From contig JAGCGS010000023.1 in the NCBI GenBank assembly GCA_017649485.1, forward strand, positions 1 through 54,030: 54,030 nucleotides of DNA, read 5' to 3'. This document shows, piece by piece, positions 391 to 6,696 of the stretch. Source of the stretch: Bacteroidaceae bacterium (GTDB taxonomy: Bacteria; Bacteroidota; Bacteroidia; Bacteroidales; Bacteroidaceae). Made by a program: the position numbers and the translations under genes. The notes below the pieces were generated by a model. The model was not told the DNA's origin and did no database searches. It worked only from the letters and a program-made list of their open reading frames with translations. How positions within the stretch are numbered: the stretch's first letter is position 1; the number at the start of each line of letters is the position of its first letter.

Positions 391-774
391 TCACTCGGTG
401 ATAAGCTTCTTTCCCTTATACGACTTGCGATGAGCTACAATGAACTCACGATGCTTGTCGGCCCAGGCAGTGAGCTGGACAATGAATGGCACCAACTCCT
501 TTCCCAAATCGGTGAGCTGGTACTCAACATGCAGGGGAACCTCAGGAAAGACTTCACGATTAACCAGCGCATCAGCCTCTAATGTCCTGAGCGTATGGGA
601 GAGCACTTTGGCAGACACATCGGGAATACTCTTTGACAAATCACCAAAACGGACTGAACCCTTCTCATGTATGATCAAGATAACAAGCAGCGACCATTTG
701 TTGCCAAAACGAGCAACCACATTGCGAATGGGACAAACCTCCAAAATACTGTTTTTTTCTTCTTTCTTGAGCAT
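391..774 (-). CDS. HxlR-family winged-helix transcriptional regulator
   Basis: This 127-residue protein has the HxlR family layout: an early Cys (CPIRNVV, residues 14-20), the helix FGNKWSLLVILII and the winged-helix segment RFGDLSKSIPDVSAKVLSHTL, followed by LVNREVFPEVPLHVEYQLT, the typical wing. HxlR proteins are small DNA-binding regulators, some of which respond to aldehydes or redox signals through the N-terminal Cys. It lies 6 bp after the oxidoreductase gene at 781-1740 and is probably the last gene of the operon that starts at 3770, so it may regulate that operon or the oxidoreductase. The ligand cannot be read from the sequence. Confidence 0.9.
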   Translation of the reverse strand: MLKKEEKNSILEVCPIRNVVARFGNKWSLLVILIIHEKGSVRFGDLSKSIPDVSAKVLSHTLRTLEADALVNREVFPEVPLHVEYQLTDLGKELVPFIVQLTAWADKHREFIVAHRKSYKGKKLITE

Positions 775-780
775 AATTAT

Positions 781-1740
781 TTACATTTTTAGAATTATCT
801 TCCCTCCTGCCCCACCTTGTTCCAGCAAGGTATGTGCCTCAACAATCTCATCCATCGTGAACACCTTGGCATAGAGGGGCTGGATATGTTTTTTTCCTAT
901 TAACTCAAACATGCCATTAATGGCTTTCTTTGATGGATAATTGGAATAGAAGCCCGTGAGAAATACACCATTGGGAATGAATTTGATAGGATCGAAGTGC
1001 TGTATGGTATAGACATTGCCAAGCACACCAGTGCTGCACACATAACCAGGACGGCTGACCGTCAGCAAGGAATCTTGCAAGGTCTTGGGTCCTATCAGCT
1101 CCAGAATCTTGTTGGGCTTTGCCTTGAAAATGCGACGGCTCAACTCACCATTATCAATGGTGCAGTGGTCGGCTCCAATGGCTTCTAATTTCTCGAACGA
1201 CTCCTCCCGACGACATGCAGCTATCACCTTTGCACCGATGGCCTTAGCCAGTTGTATGGCGGCCTGCCCTACTGAGCTGGTGGCCCCACGAACCAACAGG
1301 GTGTCGGAGGCTGATAACTGCAAACACTCAAACAAAGAGCCGTAAGCAGTATAGTAGGTTTCGGGCACAGCAGCCAAAGAAACCCAGTCATAATCATAAT
1401 CTACCTTGAATACATGAGTATATGGAAGCAGGGCATACTCGGCATAGCTGCCGTTGAACGAGCGACCCATGCCACCCATCAAGGCTATCACCTTGTCGCC
1501 TTTGCGGAAATCGCAATCAGAGGGGTCAGCTATCTCGCCCACACACTCGATGCCTGGCACAATTGGGGTATTGATATAGTCGTTGTCGGCCTCAAACATC
1601 CTCAGCAAAGCCTCCGAATGGTTCAGTCCGGCAGCATGAACCTTCACCAGCACCCAGCCTGGCCTTACCTTAGGAACAGGAATTTCGCTTACTTTTAACG
1701 CTTCCGCCTTGCAGCATTTATCAATCACTATAGCTTTCAT
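781..1740 (-). CDS. Zinc-independent MDR oxidoreductase, quinone oxidoreductase-like
   Basis: This is a 319-residue medium-chain dehydrogenase/reductase. It has a GroES-like N-terminal half (PGWVLVKVHAAGLNHSE; PGIECVGEI near residues 63-70) and a nucleotide-binding motif GATSSVGQAA at about 152-161. The structural-zinc Cys cluster of alcohol dehydrogenases is absent, which points to the quinone oxidoreductase branch that reduces quinones or enones with NADPH. I place the start at the ATG at 1740 because it overlaps the stop of the upstream radical SAM gene (TAATG). A five-residue upstream extension to 1755 is possible but less likely. It sits between the radical SAM gene and the HxlR regulator, and its substrate is unknown. 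Confidence 0.85.
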   Translation of the reverse strand: MKAIVIDKCCKAEALKVSEIPVPKVRPGWVLVKVHAAGLNHSEALLRMFEADNDYINTPIVPGIECVGEIADPSDCDFRKGDKVIALMGGMGRSFNGSYAEYALLPYTHVFKVDYDYDWVSLAAVPETYYTAYGSLFECLQLSASDTLLVRGATSSVGQAAIQLAKAIGAKVIAACRREESFEKLEAIGADHCTIDNGELSRRIFKAKPNKILELIGPKTLQDSLLTVSRPGYVCSTGVLGNVYTIQHFDPIKFIPNGVFLTGFYSNYPSKKAINGMFELIGKKHIQPLYAKVFTMDEIVEAHTLLEQGGAGGKIILKM

Positions 1741-2768
1741 TAATCTTTCCAACATTGAGGATCAGGTGCATAGAAGTTTTTAGTATAGCCAAAGGCAACG
1801 GCAGGACAGCCCCGACAAAAACGCAGCAACTCGCACTTACCGCATTTCTCAAAGCGTTCGTGCTGGCGATACTGATCCATCTTCTCGCCATAAAACACAT
1901 CAGACAGCTCCTCATCAACCGTACCTACATAGCTTTCGAAGCGGCGGCAAGCCATCAGCCTACCCTCAGCCGAAATGGTAAAATGGCAGTTGCTGCAATT
2001 ACAGCCGTCATAGATGGTTTCTTCGTCAAGACCTTCGGGAATCTTGAACAAGCCTTTCTCATACAGGAACAATGTCCACAAATGGTCCTTCAGGTTAAAG
2101 GTAGTATCAGTGCCTCTGTACTGCTCGTATTTCGCCCAGCATTTCTCCAAGAGTTCACGATACTTCAACGGCTCTATGTGCCAACCTTTATCGGGCGCAG
2201 CCTTGTCCTCGCTCGTAGGACAATAACGGCCAAAGGCAAAGATATCAGCATGATGCTCGACCACCAAATCGATGATATCAGGAATTTCATGGATATTGGT
2301 ACCCGAAACTGTAGTCATGATGGCGCAATGCATCCCCGACTTGCGGATGGTGGCTATGGCTTCCAATGTGCGGTCAAAAGAGCCTGGCTTACGGAAATAG
2401 TCGTGAGTCTCTCGCATTCCGTCAATACTCAGCTGATATTTACGACATCCAAGGCTTTTCAGTCGCTGGCAAACCTCATCAGTTAAATGAAAAGGATTCC
2501 CCATGATGGTGAAAGGTATGTCATGACGATGCACCAACTCAAGGAAATCCCAAAAGCGACTGTGCAAAATGGGGTCGCCACCTGTTATGTATAAATATGG
2601 CAAACGTCCCATTCGCTGACACATGCGCTCCACGTTGGCAAGCACTGTTACTAATCTCTCCCAGGGCATCTCAATGAGCTTAGTATGCCCTTCGGAGAAG
2701 ATGTAACAATGCTTGCAACGTTGGTCGCACTCATCAGTTATGTGCCACTGAAAAGCAAAGTACTCCAC
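1740..2768 (-). CDS. Radical SAM/SPASM enzyme, ACGX-type peptide maturase
   Basis: The 342-residue protein opens with the radical SAM motif CDQRCKHC (Cys14, Cys18, Cys21), which binds the 4Fe-4S cluster that cleaves S-adenosylmethionine. Its C-terminus carries a SPASM domain for auxiliary Fe-S clusters: C-x7-G-x4-C, then CGKCELLRFCRGC, and a last Cys four residues from the end. SPASM enzymes commonly modify ribosomal peptides. The start is a GTG at 2768, only 5 nt after the stop of the repeat peptide gene, which implies coupled translation and makes that peptide the likely substrate. The pairing matches the 'ACGX system' named in TIGRFAM/NCBIfam, as I recall it. A thioether or other Cys/C-alpha linkage is the obvious expectation, but it is an inference. 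Confidence 0.88.
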   Translation of the reverse strand: MEYFAFQWHITDECDQRCKHCYIFSEGHTKLIEMPWERLVTVLANVERMCQRMGRLPYLYITGGDPILHSRFWDFLELVHRHDIPFTIMGNPFHLTDEVCQRLKSLGCRKYQLSIDGMRETHDYFRKPGSFDRTLEAIATIRKSGMHCAIMTTVSGTNIHEIPDIIDLVVEHHADIFAFGRYCPTSEDKAAPDKGWHIEPLKYRELLEKCWAKYEQYRGTDTTFNLKDHLWTLFLYEKGLFKIPEGLDEETIYDGCNCSNCHFTISAEGRLMACRRFESYVGTVDEELSDVFYGEKMDQYRQHERFEKCGKCELLRFCRGCPAVAFGYTKNFYAPDPQCWKD

Positions 2769-2773
2769 TGCGC

Positions 2774-2986
2774 TTATTTTTCACCAGCACCGCATGCGCT
2801 TCCGCAAGCAGCAGGTTTCTCCTCAGCAGGTTTGTCACCTGCACCACATGCGCTACCACAAGCAGCTGGCTTCTCTTCAGCTGGTTTGTCACCTGAGCCA
2901 CAAGCAGCACCACAAGCAGCCGGCTTCTCATCATTCAACATAATGCCCTGAGCACTATGCGCAAAATTGTAATCAACTCTTTTCAT
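2774..2986 (-). CDS. ACGX-repeat peptide, predicted RiPP precursor
   Basis: This 70-residue peptide has a leader of about 19 residues (MKRVDYNFAHSAQGIMLND) followed by two full copies and one shortened copy of an 18-residue unit of the form EKPAACGxACGxGDKPAE, at residues 20-37, 38-55 and 56-70. Each unit carries two ACG motifs, giving six Cys (25, 29, 43, 47, 61, 65), all in the repeat part. There is no export signal of the usual kind. The adjacent radical SAM/SPASM gene begins 5 nt downstream, so this is the probable substrate. Repeats between the units are also visible in the DNA, consistent with growth by duplication. ACGX-repeat peptides are a named family, but I know of no characterised product. 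Confidence 0.85.
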   Translation of the reverse strand: MKRVDYNFAHSAQGIMLNDEKPAACGAACGSGDKPAEEKPAACGSACGAGDKPAEEKPAACGSACGAGEK

Positions 2987-3017: not shown

Positions 3018-3770
3018 TTATTTCTTCAACGCCCATGCTAACAGATCGGTAATATAGGCACGGCTATCCTTGCCCCACCAACGAGTTTCCATCCTATTGG
3101 TCACCTTTCGCACGCCATCAGGATAGCCCAACAGTAAACCCACCATTGTGTCGCCTCCCACAAACAGCTTTCCGCCTTTCTTAGTCTTCACATACGTGCC
3201 GTGCAGCCAACCATCTTCCATACATACACTTACAGGCGTACCACCAGTCATCACACAGGCACCACTATAAGGAATTTCATAACGCTCCTTAAATATCTCG
3301 CTTTTGAATGAAACGGCTCCCACGTTGCCAGGCAGGGGCACATCCTTGCCAAACTCAATGCCAAAAGGACGAGTAACATCGTTGGCACCATAGCGGTCTA
3401 AATCCACACGGTGGTTATCATCCACAAAGAAGATGAGCGACCCGCCTTTATTCACATAGTTCACCAGCGCCTGCTTCTCAACCTCAGTTAAGTCTTTCTG
3501 CAATTTGTTGCTCAAAGGTGATAGCATCACCAAAACATCAATCTTCTTGAGAAGTTGTGGGGTTATCTCAGCATCATTATTCACTACCAATTCAGCACCA
3601 AGCTGTTGTGCCATCTCTGTATAGGCAGGCACCACCAGAGGATAAGTCTCATGTCCCTCGTAAACATCTGTACACTGACTGTGAGACAAGTCAAACATAA
3701 TCCTCTTTTGAGCTTGAATGCTCACCGCCACAGCCATCAGCACTATTGCTATTGTCAATATTTTCTTCAT
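3018..3770 (-). CDS. Secreted DUF4350-like protein, glutamine amidotransferase-like fold
   Basis: This 250-residue protein starts with a signal peptide (MKKILTIAIVLMAVAVSIQAQ) and so should act in the periplasm. The body alternates beta strands and helices as in class I glutamine amidotransferase-like or DUF4350 domains: RIMFDLSHSQ, IDVLVMLSPLS, LVNYVNKGGSLIFFVDDN, then GKLFVGGDTMVG. I see no obvious catalytic Cys-His-Glu triad, so it may bind rather than hydrolyse. It is the first gene of the operon containing the ACGX peptide and the radical SAM enzyme; 31 nt separate it from the peptide gene. A -7 box lies at 3793-3800. A role in handling the modified peptide outside the cytoplasm is possible but speculative. 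Confidence 0.7.
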   Translation of the reverse strand: MKKILTIAIVLMAVAVSIQAQKRIMFDLSHSQCTDVYEGHETYPLVVPAYTEMAQQLGAELVVNNDAEITPQLLKKIDVLVMLSPLSNKLQKDLTEVEKQALVNYVNKGGSLIFFVDDNHRVDLDRYGANDVTRPFGIEFGKDVPLPGNVGAVSFKSEIFKERYEIPYSGACVMTGGTPVSVCMEDGWLHGTYVKTKKGGKLFVGGDTMVGLLLGYPDGVRKVTNRMETRWWGKDSRAYITDLLAWALKK

Positions 3771-3792: not shown

Positions 3793-3823
3793 CAAAAGTA
3801 ATGAGAAATATTTTATCATGCAA
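3793..3823 (-). promoter_or_regulatory. Promoter of the radical SAM/ACGX operon
   Basis: On the minus strand TACTTTTG (3800-3793) fits the Bacteroidetes -7 consensus TAnnTTTG. A weaker -33 element, TTG, lies 20 bp upstream at 3823-3821. Transcription would start about 15 nt before the ATG at 3770. Confidence 0.6.
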
Positions 3824-3974
3824 TAGGTTACAAATCTGTTCCATAGTAACCTAAAAGTTTACTTTGGTGTTCTCAGACGATAACGAGCTGGTTAAAAAAA
3901 GTTAATCGTCATTTGGGACATCTTTTTGCTTGGTTATTCATACGAAACAATCAAGCCACTTTTTTGTAAGAAAA

Positions 3975-4037: not shown

Positions 4038-4940
4038 ATGACTATTGACCTTTACATTGATCAGCCTAATGACTATGCGCTTGACATCGGAGCTCCCACC
4101 TATCATCCCCATGTCTCAATCATCAGCTATGACGAGGTCGGCCCGATAAGGCATACTATGAACCGCTTTAATGTATTTGGGCTTTTTCTTCAGGAGGAAT
4201 TTCCTGAGGATTTGGTATATGGCATTGGTAAGTATAAGCACGCCAATGGATCGCTTTTGGCTTATTCTCCCGGACAAGTGGGTGGTAAGCCATTCAATGG
4301 TACATACTGCCAGTATCACGGATGGGTACTGCTGTTTGATGCTACTTTCATTCAGGGTACAGAGATAGAAAGGCACCTTGCTGACTATCATTTCTTTTCG
4401 TACGACACAAACGAAGCGCTCATCCTGACTGATGATGAGAAGGAGATTTTGAACGGTTTGATGCAGAATATCCGCACCGAACTGCAACAGACAAGCGGAG
4501 AAGCACATACAGATATCATCGTCAAAGATTATATCCTGCTGATACTTGACTATTGTAACAGGTTTTATGCCAGACAATTTAAGGATCTATCAACTGCAGT
4601 AGTAAACATATTGGCACGTTTTCAGCGACTACTCACTGACTATTATGATCAGGGGCTGCAAGCAAAATATGGGTTGCCCAGTGTGAGCTACTGTGCACGT
4701 GAGCTATGCCTTTCTCCTGGCTATTTTGGCGATATTCTGCGCAATACAATGGGCGATAATCCCAAAAACTACATCAACAATTTCATCATCATGCGTTCGA
4801 AGAACCTCTTGCTGGGGGGAATGCAAGTGAAACAGGTAGCTGAGGAACTTGGCTTTGAATATGCCAACCATTTCACCCGACTATTTAAAAAGATTACCGG
4901 ACTGACACCCTCTGCTTTTCTGGCTTCAGCACAGCTATAA
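4038..4940 (+). CDS. AraC-family transcriptional regulator
   Basis: The 300-residue protein has an N-terminal sensing domain of about 190 residues and a C-terminal double helix-turn-helix at roughly 205-298. The signature parts are YCARELCLSPGYFGDILRNT for the first helix-turn-helix, and VKQVAEELGFEYANHFTRLFKK with ITGLTPSAF for the second. It is transcribed divergently from the ACGX operon and is followed at 5033 by a cyclophilin-like lipoprotein and an alpha/beta hydrolase. It may therefore regulate either side or both. The effector is not evident from the N-terminal domain. Confidence 0.92.
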   Translation: MTIDLYIDQPNDYALDIGAPTYHPHVSIISYDEVGPIRHTMNRFNVFGLFLQEEFPEDLVYGIGKYKHANGSLLAYSPGQVGGKPFNGTYCQYHGWVLLFDATFIQGTEIERHLADYHFFSYDTNEALILTDDEKEILNGLMQNIRTELQQTSGEAHTDIIVKDYILLILDYCNRFYARQFKDLSTAVVNILARFQRLLTDYYDQGLQAKYGLPSVSYCARELCLSPGYFGDILRNTMGDNPKNYINNFIIMRSKNLLLGGMQVKQVAEELGFEYANHFTRLFKKITGLTPSAFLASAQL

Positions 4941-5006
4941 TAAACTATCGTCAATAATGGTATATTATTCAACAATCTATATATGCAGACAGATTTACTA
5001 TTGTTG

Positions 5007-5014
5007 TATCTTTG
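5007..5014 (+). promoter_or_regulatory. -7 box upstream of the cyclophilin-like lipoprotein gene
   Basis: TATCTTTG fits TAnnTTTG exactly and lies 30 bp before the preferred ATG at 5045. I see no clear TTTG at the expected -33 distance. Confidence 0.5.
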
Positions 5015-5044
5015 CAACATAGTAAATAAAAGATGTATGACACA

Positions 5045-5557
5045 ATGAGAAAATATCTATTATTGCTGGTGGCCAGTATATGTTTAGGATGCTCGCATGA
5101 TGACAATGTGATGGCACAAATGCCAATTCCTACTACGGAAATTAAGAGTAGTGAAAAGGAAACTGAAAACCAAGAAGAAAAGGAAACTGAAATGAAAAAG
5201 GAGATTTACATGACAGTTGGCGAAAACAAACTGACTGTAAAACTGGTGGATAACAATGCTACAAAAGCATTGGTTGAAGCACTGTCTGACGCGCCCATAA
5301 CGTACGAAGCCAACGATTATGGTGGCTTCGAGAAAGTAGGAGCTTTGGGCAGATCACTGCCCATAAGCAACACGCAGCTCACCACTAAGCCAGGTGACGT
5401 TATTCTTTATAACGGCAACCAGATTGTGCTATTTTATGGCAGCAACTCATGGAGCTATACCCGGCTGGGAGAGATGCTGTATCAGTCGATTGACGAATTG
5501 AAGAGCTTCTTGAGGGCAGGCCAAGGCAGCATCATGGTGACACTATCATTGGAATAA
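5045..5557 (+). CDS. Lipoprotein with cyclophilin-like fold
   Basis: The protein begins MRKYLLLLVASICLGC, a lipoprotein signal with the lipid-modified Cys at residue 16. After an acidic linker rich in Glu and Lys there is a domain of about 115 residues (EIYMTVGENKLTVKLVDNNA ... GDVILYNGNQIVLFYGSNSW) typical of the bacterial cyclophilin-like family. Those proteins share the cyclophilin barrel but usually lack demonstrated isomerase activity. I prefer the ATG at 5045 over the in-frame ATG at 5033 because it gives a standard lipoprotein signal and a normal leader after the -7 box at 5007-5014. It lies 11 bp before the alpha/beta hydrolase lipoprotein and is probably cotranscribed with it. Confidence 0.82.
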   Translation: MRKYLLLLVASICLGCSHDDNVMAQMPIPTTEIKSSEKETENQEEKETEMKKEIYMTVGENKLTVKLVDNNATKALVEALSDAPITYEANDYGGFEKVGALGRSLPISNTQLTTKPGDVILYNGNQIVLFYGSNSWSYTRLGEMLYQSIDELKSFLRAGQGSIMVTLSLE

Positions 5558-5568
5558 CCTATAACAAT

Positions 5569-6696
5569 ATGAAAAAATCTTATTTAACCCTAATCTTCGC
5601 TACCGCACTGCTGACAGCTTGCAGTACGAAGGTTACTAACGAATCAAAAATGGCAAAAATGGAACTGACACAGGAGTGGGACAAAGTGTTCCAACTTAGC
5701 GAAAAGGTAAACCACCGCAAGGTGATGTTTGACACACAGTATGGCTTTACGCTGGCGGCCGACCTGTATGAGCCGAAGGAATCATCGGAAGGGAAGCTGG
5801 CAGCTATCGCTGTAAGCGGACCGTTCGGTGCCACTAAGGAACAATCGAGCGGACTCTATGCTATGCGTATGGCTGAGCGAGGATTTGTTACAATAGCCTT
5901 CGACCCGTCTTTCACTGGAGAGAGCAGCGGAGAACCAAGACGAACAGCATCACCCGACATTAATACGGAAGACTTTATGGCAGCTGTTGATTATCTCTCT
6001 ACCCTACCTCAGGTTGACCCTGAGCGAATTGGCATTATCGGCATCTGCGGCTGGGGAGGCATCGCCCTGAACGCTGCTGCCGCCGACACCCGGATCAAGG
6101 CAACTGTGGCAAGTACTATGTATGACATGAGTCGCGTCAGTGGCAATGACTACAACGATGCTTTCGACATAGAGGAGGCACGCCACAAGAACCGCGAAAT
6201 GCTGTCAAAGCAGCGTCTCGTCGACCCGATGGCTATGGCTGGTGGCGTACTGGATAGCGTACCTTGGCAGGCTCCGCAGTTCGTGAAGGACTACCATGAT
6301 TATTACAAGACATCACGTGGCTATCATGCCCGCAGCGGCAATTCCAACGACGGTTGGCGCACCATCGGCACACAGGCCTACGCCAATACCCGTTTCCTCT
6401 ACTATATCAACGAGATACGCTCAGCTGTAATGGTGATGCACGGTGAGGATGCCCACTCACGCTACTTCGGTGAGGCTGCCTTTCATTATATGGTTGAAGG
6501 CAAAGCTGAGGGGTATAACACTGTCGTTAAGCCCAACCCTGTGCCAGAAAACAAGCAGTTGCTCATTATCCCCAATGCTTCTCATACCGACCTCTACGAT
6601 GGTGGCTTTACTCAGCCGGCAGGCAAGGGTGAAAGCAAGAACCTCATCCCCTGGGATAAGCTCGCTGACTTTTTCAATCAATATCTAATCAAATAA
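5569..6696 (+). CDS. Alpha/beta hydrolase lipoprotein, dienelactone hydrolase-like
   Basis: The 375-residue protein starts with a lipoprotein signal ending LLTAC (Cys18). The nucleophile elbow reads GICGWGG, placing Cys160 where most alpha/beta hydrolases have Ser, as in dienelactone hydrolases. The likely acid is Asp294 (MHGEDAHS) and the likely His is His339 (NASHTDLYD). It should act in the periplasm or on the outer membrane as an esterase, lactonase or peptidase-like hydrolase; the substrate is unknown. It follows the cyclophilin-like lipoprotein by 11 bp and precedes the GH106 gene by 25 bp, so the three may form one transcription unit. It could deacylate plant or bacterial glycans, but that is only inferred from the neighbours. 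Confidence 0.85.
   Translation: MKKSYLTLIFATALLTACSTKVTNESKMAKMELTQEWDKVFQLSEKVNHRKVMFDTQYGFTLAADLYEPKESSEGKLAAIAVSGPFGATKEQSSGLYAMRMAERGFVTIAFDPSFTGESSGEPRRTASPDINTEDFMAAVDYLSTLPQVDPERIGIIGICGWGGIALNAAAADTRIKATVASTMYDMSRVSGNDYNDAFDIEEARHKNREMLSKQRLVDPMAMAGGVLDSVPWQAPQFVKDYHDYYKTSRGYHARSGNSNDGWRTIGTQAYANTRFLYYINEIRSAVMVMHGEDAHSRYFGEAAFHYMVEGKAEGYNTVVKPNPVPENKQLLIIPNASHTDLYDGGFTQPAGKGESKNLIPWDKLADFFNQYLIK

Follow-up and report, generated by a model that had tools for sequence, protein, structure and literature searches.

The first 3.9 kb of the window, as we call the whole stretch of 54,030 nucleotides (nt) analyzed here (a Bacteroidaceae bacterium, GenBank assembly GCA_017649485.1, contig JAGCGS010000023.1, positions 1 to 54,030), carry on the minus strand five genes that encode, in order of transcription, a ThuA-like protein, a Cys-rich repeat peptide of the ACGX family, a radical SAM/SPASM enzyme, a medium-chain reductase (MDR) resembling NAD(P)H quinone oxidoreductases, and a regulator of the HxlR family. 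The peptide and the enzyme form an almost constant pair among relatives, in which NAD(P)H-type reductases adjoin the enzyme and HxlR genes with a conserved N-terminal Cys lie nearby. We lean, with slight confidence, towards regarding this unit as a thiol- or electrophile-stress operon, the crosslinked Cys peptide of which stays inside the cell as a thiol scavenger or a redox carrier served by the NAD(P)H reductase. The ACGX family is already catalogued, and by sequence the window's pair adds a member to it; as a system, the unit varies the maturation of peptides by radical SAM enzymes in that it is placed under a regulator of the thiol-stress type. Pairs of radical SAM enzymes and peptides have mostly been searched as sources of antibiotics. 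If the present reading is correct, such pairs also yield protective redox agents, and an NCBIfam family that was named without a function gains a testable role, an inducer, an operator, and a partner enzyme.

Constancy and Distribution of the Peptide-Enzyme Pair

The peptide gene (2774..2986, minus strand) starts with ATG and encodes 70 residues (MKRVDYNFAHSAQGIMLNDEKPAACGAACGSGDKPAEEKPAACGSACGAGDKPAEEKPAACGSACGAGEK), while the enzyme gene (1740..2768, minus strand) begins with GTG 5 nt further on (gap 2769-2773) and encodes 342 residues. Both products score far above the curated NCBIfam cut-offs, namely those of TIGR04341 for the peptide (66.6 bits, cut-off 28) and TIGR04340 for the enzyme (552.3 bits, cut-off 400), and this confirms the family name that the initial annotation had given. 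Its account of six Cys residues in three ACGxACG units also holds, the units being ACGAACG, ACGSACG, and ACGSACG (open reading frame [ORF] 2986..2774), as does that of a GTG-started SPASM radical SAM gene directly behind (ORF 2768..1740). A chance ORF or a misannotation of the peptide was ruled out by these family scores together with codon counts; compared with seven relatives of the same length, the peptide gene shows 20-34 synonymous and 5-25 non-synonymous codon differences, the former being more numerous in each comparison, with two of the relatives (L011 and L024) being near-identical and giving equal counts.

The best 80 of 138 confirmed relatives from a scan of a species-genome collection, together with 8 loci from genomes of the family besides the window's own, led to a set of 89 loci, nine of which, including L090, are near-identical to another (enzymes more than 98% alike). 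Leaving out L010 and L023, in which the contig ends just upstream, a peptide with ACG/CG repeats precedes the enzyme in 86 of 87 loci from Bacteroidota and Clostridia, and in 79 of 79 without near-identical enzymes. The sole locus without a peptide is L090, a near-copy of L085 that is hence absent from the latter count, and operator-like half-sites lie directly ahead of its enzyme. In four other loci (L035, L048, L052, and L060), the peptide is located 464-622 nt upstream of the enzyme with a cupin gene in between. Among 301 genomes of the family, the enzyme was detected in nine and the peptide above its cut-off in eight, all within those nine; the one left over is G113, in which the match to the enzyme starts at base 51 of its contig. 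A loose linkage of the pair was ruled out by these two results, and the coupling proposed by the initial annotation holds, homologs that usually occur apart not being seen among these loci.

The system is rare and patchy; carriers number 9 among the 301 family genomes, 1 among 22 of the same genus, and 2 among 344 sampled from the order. A quick enzyme tree, the deep branches of which are weak, shows a single switch of phylum and no sign of recent spread between Bacteroidota and Clostridia. Two assemblies each contain two ACGX loci (L017 and L020 in JAGCCV01; L071 and L083 in JAIEEY01), and, therefore, some carriers hold two copies. Two peptide matches below the cut-off were also found in the 301 family genomes, in G282 and G013. 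The former (L102:1456-1617, minus strand) is a degenerate ACGX peptide (FAHSAQGVVKQREKPAACSGACGASDRC...) with a tRNA-Val gene approximately 230 bases away. Its genome gave no enzyme match in the family-genome scan, and the peptide seems to be what is left of an ACGX system that was lost.

An HxlR-Family Regulator and Its Predicted Operator

The regulator gene (391..774, minus strand) belongs to the HxlR/DUF24 family (PF01638, 94.5 bits, cut-off 20.8), and the window's genome (2.6 Mb, 82.6% complete) has no other HxlR match. Of the 76 loci with 1.4 kb available on either side, 60 have an HxlR gene between -2.5 and +3 kb (54 of 68 after the removal of enzymes more than 98% alike), and it is divergent in 48. 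The N-terminal Cys-Pro is kept in 69 of 70 HxlR ORFs, the exception being a short ORF in L042, and Cys14 of the window's regulator aligns with Cys14 of YybR (4a5m), which we take to be HypR. In the part of the account in PMC6943732 that concerns HypR, this residue is described as S-thioallylated under allicin. If the window's protein behaves similarly, quinones, aldehydes, or oxidants would react with its sensing-type Cys14, the regulator would act at the site described below, and the operon would be switched on.

The site is part of an extended signature, GTTAC-N14-GTAAC-N3-TTG-N20-TAnnTTTG, that lies ahead of the whole operon (3793..3850, minus strand), with the dyad at 3850-3827, the -33 TTG at 3823-3821, and the -7 element TACTTTTG at 3800-3793; we take TTG-N20-TAnnTTTG to be a promoter of the Bacteroidota type. 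An unguided dyad search of the regions between HxlR and the peptide, in which motifs common to the closely related group L063/L064/L069/L071/L072/L089 were set aside, ranked GTTAC-N14-GTAAC at the top (10 of 52 regions, against no more than three in each of five shuffles). Within the 900 nt ahead of the enzyme, the spacing of GTTAC and GTAAC has two peaks, one at 14 in 10 loci of Bacteroidota and one at 6 in 8 loci of Clostridia; no other spacing between 4 and 25 is seen in more than one locus. The promoter follows the dyad at the same fixed distances (3 nt, TTG, 20 nt, TAnnTTTG) in the window and in 19 of 21 Bacteroidota loci that have the dyad with one mismatch at most within 1.3 kb upstream, while L030, L061, and six Clostridia loci have the dyad without this promoter; in L061, the position of the site does not fit.

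With up to three mismatches, the 19-position signature is present in 32 of 65 Bacteroidota loci (11, 11, 4, and 6 with 0, 1, 2, and 3 mismatches, respectively); two controls, the pattern reversed and the sequence from the enzyme onward, gave 0 of 65 each. At up to two mismatches, it occurs once only in the window's genome, in which the reversed control gave no match. The site also precedes the operon when another gene leads it, namely a ThuA-like gene in L015, L018, and L049, a nitroreductase gene in L027, and an ABM-type monooxygenase gene in L016 and L020. Of the 301 family genomes, 25 contain the signature (one mismatch at most) and 4 the reversed control. ACGX operons account for three of the 25 signature sites, and the other 22 have an HxlR gene in the flanks (7), a cupin-like gene (12, named by eye and counted by motif), either or both (15), or neither (7). 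Since the signature recurs before the operons and beside HxlR or cupin-like genes elsewhere, GTTAC-N14-GTAAC is predicted to be the HxlR operator, and probably is. Such a constant position, immediately ahead of the -33 element, would suit an activator, from which we infer activation rather than repression, as is described for HypR and HxlR of Bacillus in the parts of the literature that treat these two proteins.

Two side observations concern the same site. In family genomes without the ACGX pair, the signature has HxlR or cupin-like genes as neighbors (L122-L144), and, judged from sequence, these sites may represent a small HxlR regulon of the window's bacterial family. In eight Clostridia loci (L068, L070, L075, L076, L077, L078, L080, and L088), GTTAC-N6-GTAAC takes the place of the N14 form upstream of the enzyme and is possibly the operator of their own HxlR.

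Partner Reductases and the Likely Operon

The MDR gene (781..1740, minus strand) encodes a protein with Pfam ADH_N and ADH_zinc_N, the top NCBIfam model of which is a PIG3-type quinone oxidoreductase (170 bits, under the cut-off of 296.8), and its ATG overlaps the stop codon of the enzyme gene by one base (TAATG). Because the intergenic gaps, in order of transcription, are 31 nt, 5 nt, this overlap, and 6 nt, the five genes likely form one operon, and the transcription unit with its promoter likely spans 3850 to 391. The span 1740..2986 delimited by the initial annotation contains its two genes exactly as given, and covers only two genes of this likely five-gene unit.

The clustering of 1015 neighboring ORFs and hidden Markov model searches identified HxlR, quinone-reductase-like MDR, nitroreductase, PNPOx-ferredoxin, ABM-type monooxygenase, SirTM, and a Zn-macro-type macrodomain as the recurring neighbors. 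An MDR, nitroreductase, PNPOx-ferredoxin, or ABM gene starts at or just past the end of the enzyme gene in 75 of the 86 loci that extend 600 nt or more downstream (67 of 77 after the removal of near-identical enzymes). Within 2 kb downstream of the enzyme, MDR was found in 43 loci and nitroreductase in 32, and the two never occurred together. On the quick enzyme tree (44 and 33 rows labelled, 12 unlabelled), the MDR and nitroreductase states change at least eight times, and because of this, one kind of reductase appears to have repeatedly replaced the other. We read this as one job next to the enzyme that either reductase may perform. MDR and nitroreductase are nevertheless present together in five wider loci (L015, L018, L035, L048, and L051), which slightly lowers our confidence in the stress-operon reading; the two therefore exclude each other only as direct partners and not across a genome.

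The short precursor, the SPASM enzyme, and the interchangeable NAD(P)H-type oxidoreductases would also fit if the peptide gave rise to a small redox cofactor, comparable to mycofactocin or pyrroloquinoline quinone, for use by the adjoining MDR or nitroreductase. We consider this very unlikely because the peptides carry 3 to 10 CG units (71 different cores), which suit many equal sites better than a single cofactor, and because no further maturation gene was recognized among the shared clusters. In the stress operon that we favor, the peptide and enzyme would be co-produced, the peptide would be retained in the cell, and the reductase would regenerate the peptide or remove the offending chemical. 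The sequences show the genes with their order and linkage, the geometry of the operator site, and the motif of the peptide, whereas the signal sensed, the activation, the crosslinks, and the location and role of the peptide are inferred.

Putative Crosslink Motif of the Peptide and Proposed Chemistry of the Enzyme

The leaders of the ACGX peptides vary by group (HSAQG.L, HTAQAYL, and SAQSYL in Bacteroidota; SNVAEF or LKNLF in Clostridia), whereas the core unit is alike in both phyla. Excluding L057, the peptide of which is broken by a run of N, the last Cys of a unit, with Gly next to it, has Asp or Glu at +4 in 198 of 224 cases (140 of 154 in Bacteroidota and 58 of 70 in Clostridia), against 9 of 224 at +3 and 40 of 224 at +5. 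All three ACGxACG units of the window's peptide have Asp or Glu at +4 of the last Cys, and within a doublet the residue at +4 of the leading Cys is, by definition, Cys. Gly occupies +1 in 376 of 381 Cys residues counted, and the residues at +2 are small.

The formation of a thioether entails the loss of 2 Da per link. In PMC9413430, PapB is reported to form Cys-to-Asp/Glu thioethers at CX3D/E sites; because the unit-final C-x3-[D/E] equals this crosslink motif, the Cys-G-x-x-[Asp/Glu] pattern suggests, by analogy, thioether crosslinks in the ACGX peptide. The comparison is an analogy of motifs and does not imply kinship of the enzymes, the window's enzyme reaching only 56 bits for the PapB model NF047865 (cut-off 340). 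The enzyme would thus be expected to link Cys to Asp or Glu within each C-G-x-x-[D/E], most likely as thioethers, so that the leading Cys in every ACGxACG pair would stay a free thiol, and the remaining thiols would constitute the many-site scavenger or redox carrier.

The enzyme has the radical SAM features of its class, and the signs of a SPASM domain with two auxiliary clusters are mixed. CX3CX2C at C14/C18/C21 is invariant in all 30 aligned enzyme sequences, including the window's, as are eight C-terminal Cys residues (256, 258, 274, 309, 312, 318, 321, and 339), and Pfam Radical_SAM gives 88.5 bits. GX4C is present in the SPASM region, in which the spacing is CX2CX5CX2C, the usual one being CX2CX5CX3C, and Pfam SPASM gives 20.5 bits against a cut-off of 21.5. 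The best structural neighbors in a fold comparison include CteB, SuiB, and SkfB, which are maturases of ribosomally synthesized and post-translationally modified peptides (RiPPs), and anSMEcpe tied with CteB. This tie, the near-constant Gly at +1 with small residues at +2, and the eight C-terminal Cys residues, the number expected of an anSME with both auxiliary clusters fully ligated, speak for another chemistry, in which Cys-Gly is recognized and Cys is converted to formylglycine, as by anSME, or to a sactionine bonded to an alpha-carbon. This alternative concerns the crosslinking step and not the stress role, and we consider it doubtful, yet a chance worth keeping in mind, since Asp or Glu at +4, the best-kept position besides Gly, would have no reason under either reaction, and since the Pro and Arg at +4 and +6 of the anSME substrate motif are absent.

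A SPASM enzyme with a dedicated Cys-rich precursor, and RiPP maturases among the best structural neighbors, are also what a secreted product such as a sacti- or ranthipeptide bacteriocin would have, with Cys links, a leader cleaved by a protease, and export; the initial annotation similarly regarded the pair as a candidate for a natural-product-like system. The conserved neighborhood argues against this, since it comprises a regulator of the thiol-sensing type together with NAD(P)H reductases and, at some loci, a stress pair of a sirtuin and a macrodomain. No leader protease or exporter common to many loci was recognized among the annotated clusters (other exporters and proteases were not scanned); the genes of the sole ABC cluster seen (c19) lie within 5 kb of only 4 of 89 loci, and an ABC motif lies near 1 of 89. 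Moreover, cores that are alike across Bacteroidota and Clostridia while the leaders differ are unlike those of a diversifying bacteriocin, and we regard this explanation as unlikely.

The dense Cys residues accompanied by Asp or Glu are, in addition, compatible with a metal-binding peptide, that is, a chelator resembling metallothioneins or bufferins that is made under metal stress. We know of no HxlR protein that senses metals, no metal transporter or metal regulator was present among the annotated neighbor clusters, and the ACGX peptide has no obvious signal peptide by eye, unlike bufferins, all of which makes this explanation improbable. Bufferins, which lend it some support, are presented in the relevant part of PMC12452194 as RiPPs that protect by copper chelation.

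Association with SirTM, and Other Neighboring Genes

Among the 60 ACGX loci with at least 3.4 kb downstream, a SirTM gene lies near 21 (7 in Bacteroidota and 14 in Clostridia). These neighbors have 5a3a as their best PDB match (247 bits), and the accompanying macrodomains match those of the Zn-macro type (8rsi and 5kiv). In a search of the genomes of 50 of the 80 loci, chosen by hand, SirTM was present in 24 (10 of 34 in Bacteroidota and 14 of 16 in Clostridia), against 11 of 344 Bacteroidales genomes, a background that lacks Clostridia. The window's genome, at its 82.6% completeness, gave no SirTM match, and neither did the two ACGX genomes of the 344-genome sample. In the known system, as outlined in portions of PMC4518038 and PMC11490716, lipoyl-GcvH-L undergoes ADP-ribosylation and is bound to an OYE reductase. 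None of the 24 genomes has a GcvH match on a SirTM contig, and 11 of the 24 have no GcvH match at an E-value of 0.001; therefore, the only known SirTM target is not adjacent.

One proposal that would join these findings is that the modified ACGX peptide, served by the reductase, replaces lipoyl-GcvH-L as the carrier or target of SirTM/Zn-macrodomain signaling and is switched by the ADP-ribosylation of Asp/Glu (or Cys). We rate it as improbable. The 11 SirTM loci without ACGX have a macrodomain in 9, PNPOx in 3, HxlR in 2, and a ThuA-like protein in 1; a shared pool of stress genes would give the same linkage, and SirTM may be a mere bystander. If true, the proposal would supply a candidate target for lone SirTM/Zn-macrodomain pairs, the targets of which are called unknown where PMC11490716 touches on them. 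At L109 (G452:C167:874-1725), a SirTM gene with an in-frame TGA adjoins a macrodomain gene and a gene for a protein related to the ThuA-like one of the window, and the stretch covered contains no ACGX genes.

The ThuA-like protein that leads the likely operon (3018..3770, minus strand) is secreted-looking and matches Pfam ABC_transp_aux and ThuA, both below cut-off; relatives were found in 9 of 89 ACGX loci. Divergent from the operon, at 4038-6696, are genes for an AraC-type regulator, a small secreted-looking protein, and a hydrolase-like protein, the last two having been named by eye.

Comparison with Known Systems

As far as the literature search reached, the product may be called undescribed, as the initial annotation had put it: no account of the ACGX family was found under the family names, and papers using the word ACGX, judged partly and by title, concern xylan or other matters. 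Nothing was found that joins a radical SAM enzyme with SirTM, or a radical SAM/peptide pair with an HxlR regulon or reductase.

Regarding the individual systems, PapB/PapA ranthipeptides share with the present pair a SPASM enzyme and repeated CX3[D/E] substrate sites; they differ in the enzyme, which falls far below the PapB cut-off and, in its predicted structure, appears to lack an RRE-like extra domain, and in the peptide, the doublets of which begin with a Cys that has Cys at +4. CteB (5why/5wgg) and anSMEcpe (4k38) are only 17-18% identical to the window's enzyme, and CteB aligns from residue 92 on, its N-terminal part having no counterpart. The best other NCBIfam profile is SbtM (TIGR04082, thio(seleno)oxazole modification maturase), with 164.8 bits against a cut-off of 350, the chemistry of which is, to our knowledge, unproven.

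The SirTM/Zn-macrodomain redox operon, to the extent described in PMC4518038 and PMC11490716, is similar in joining a thiol carrier or peptide with a reductase and ADP-ribosylation genes, and differs in that the window's genome lacks a SirTM match and the SirTM contigs of the 24 relatives' genomes lack GcvH. The HypR and YodB (HxlR/DUF24) thiol-stress regulons of Bacillus, in those aspects that the sources consulted cover, have in common with the ACGX operon the regulator family, the N-terminal Cys, and nitroreductase and other reductase targets, but belong to another phylum and another promoter type. The closest match is the ACGX system itself, TIGR04340 (rSAM_ACGX) with TIGR04341, since both proteins of the window exceed the curated cut-offs and are encoded side by side with the peptide first; to these NCBIfam names, which carry no function, the present analysis adds a likely operon, a regulator, a predicted operator, and partner reductases.

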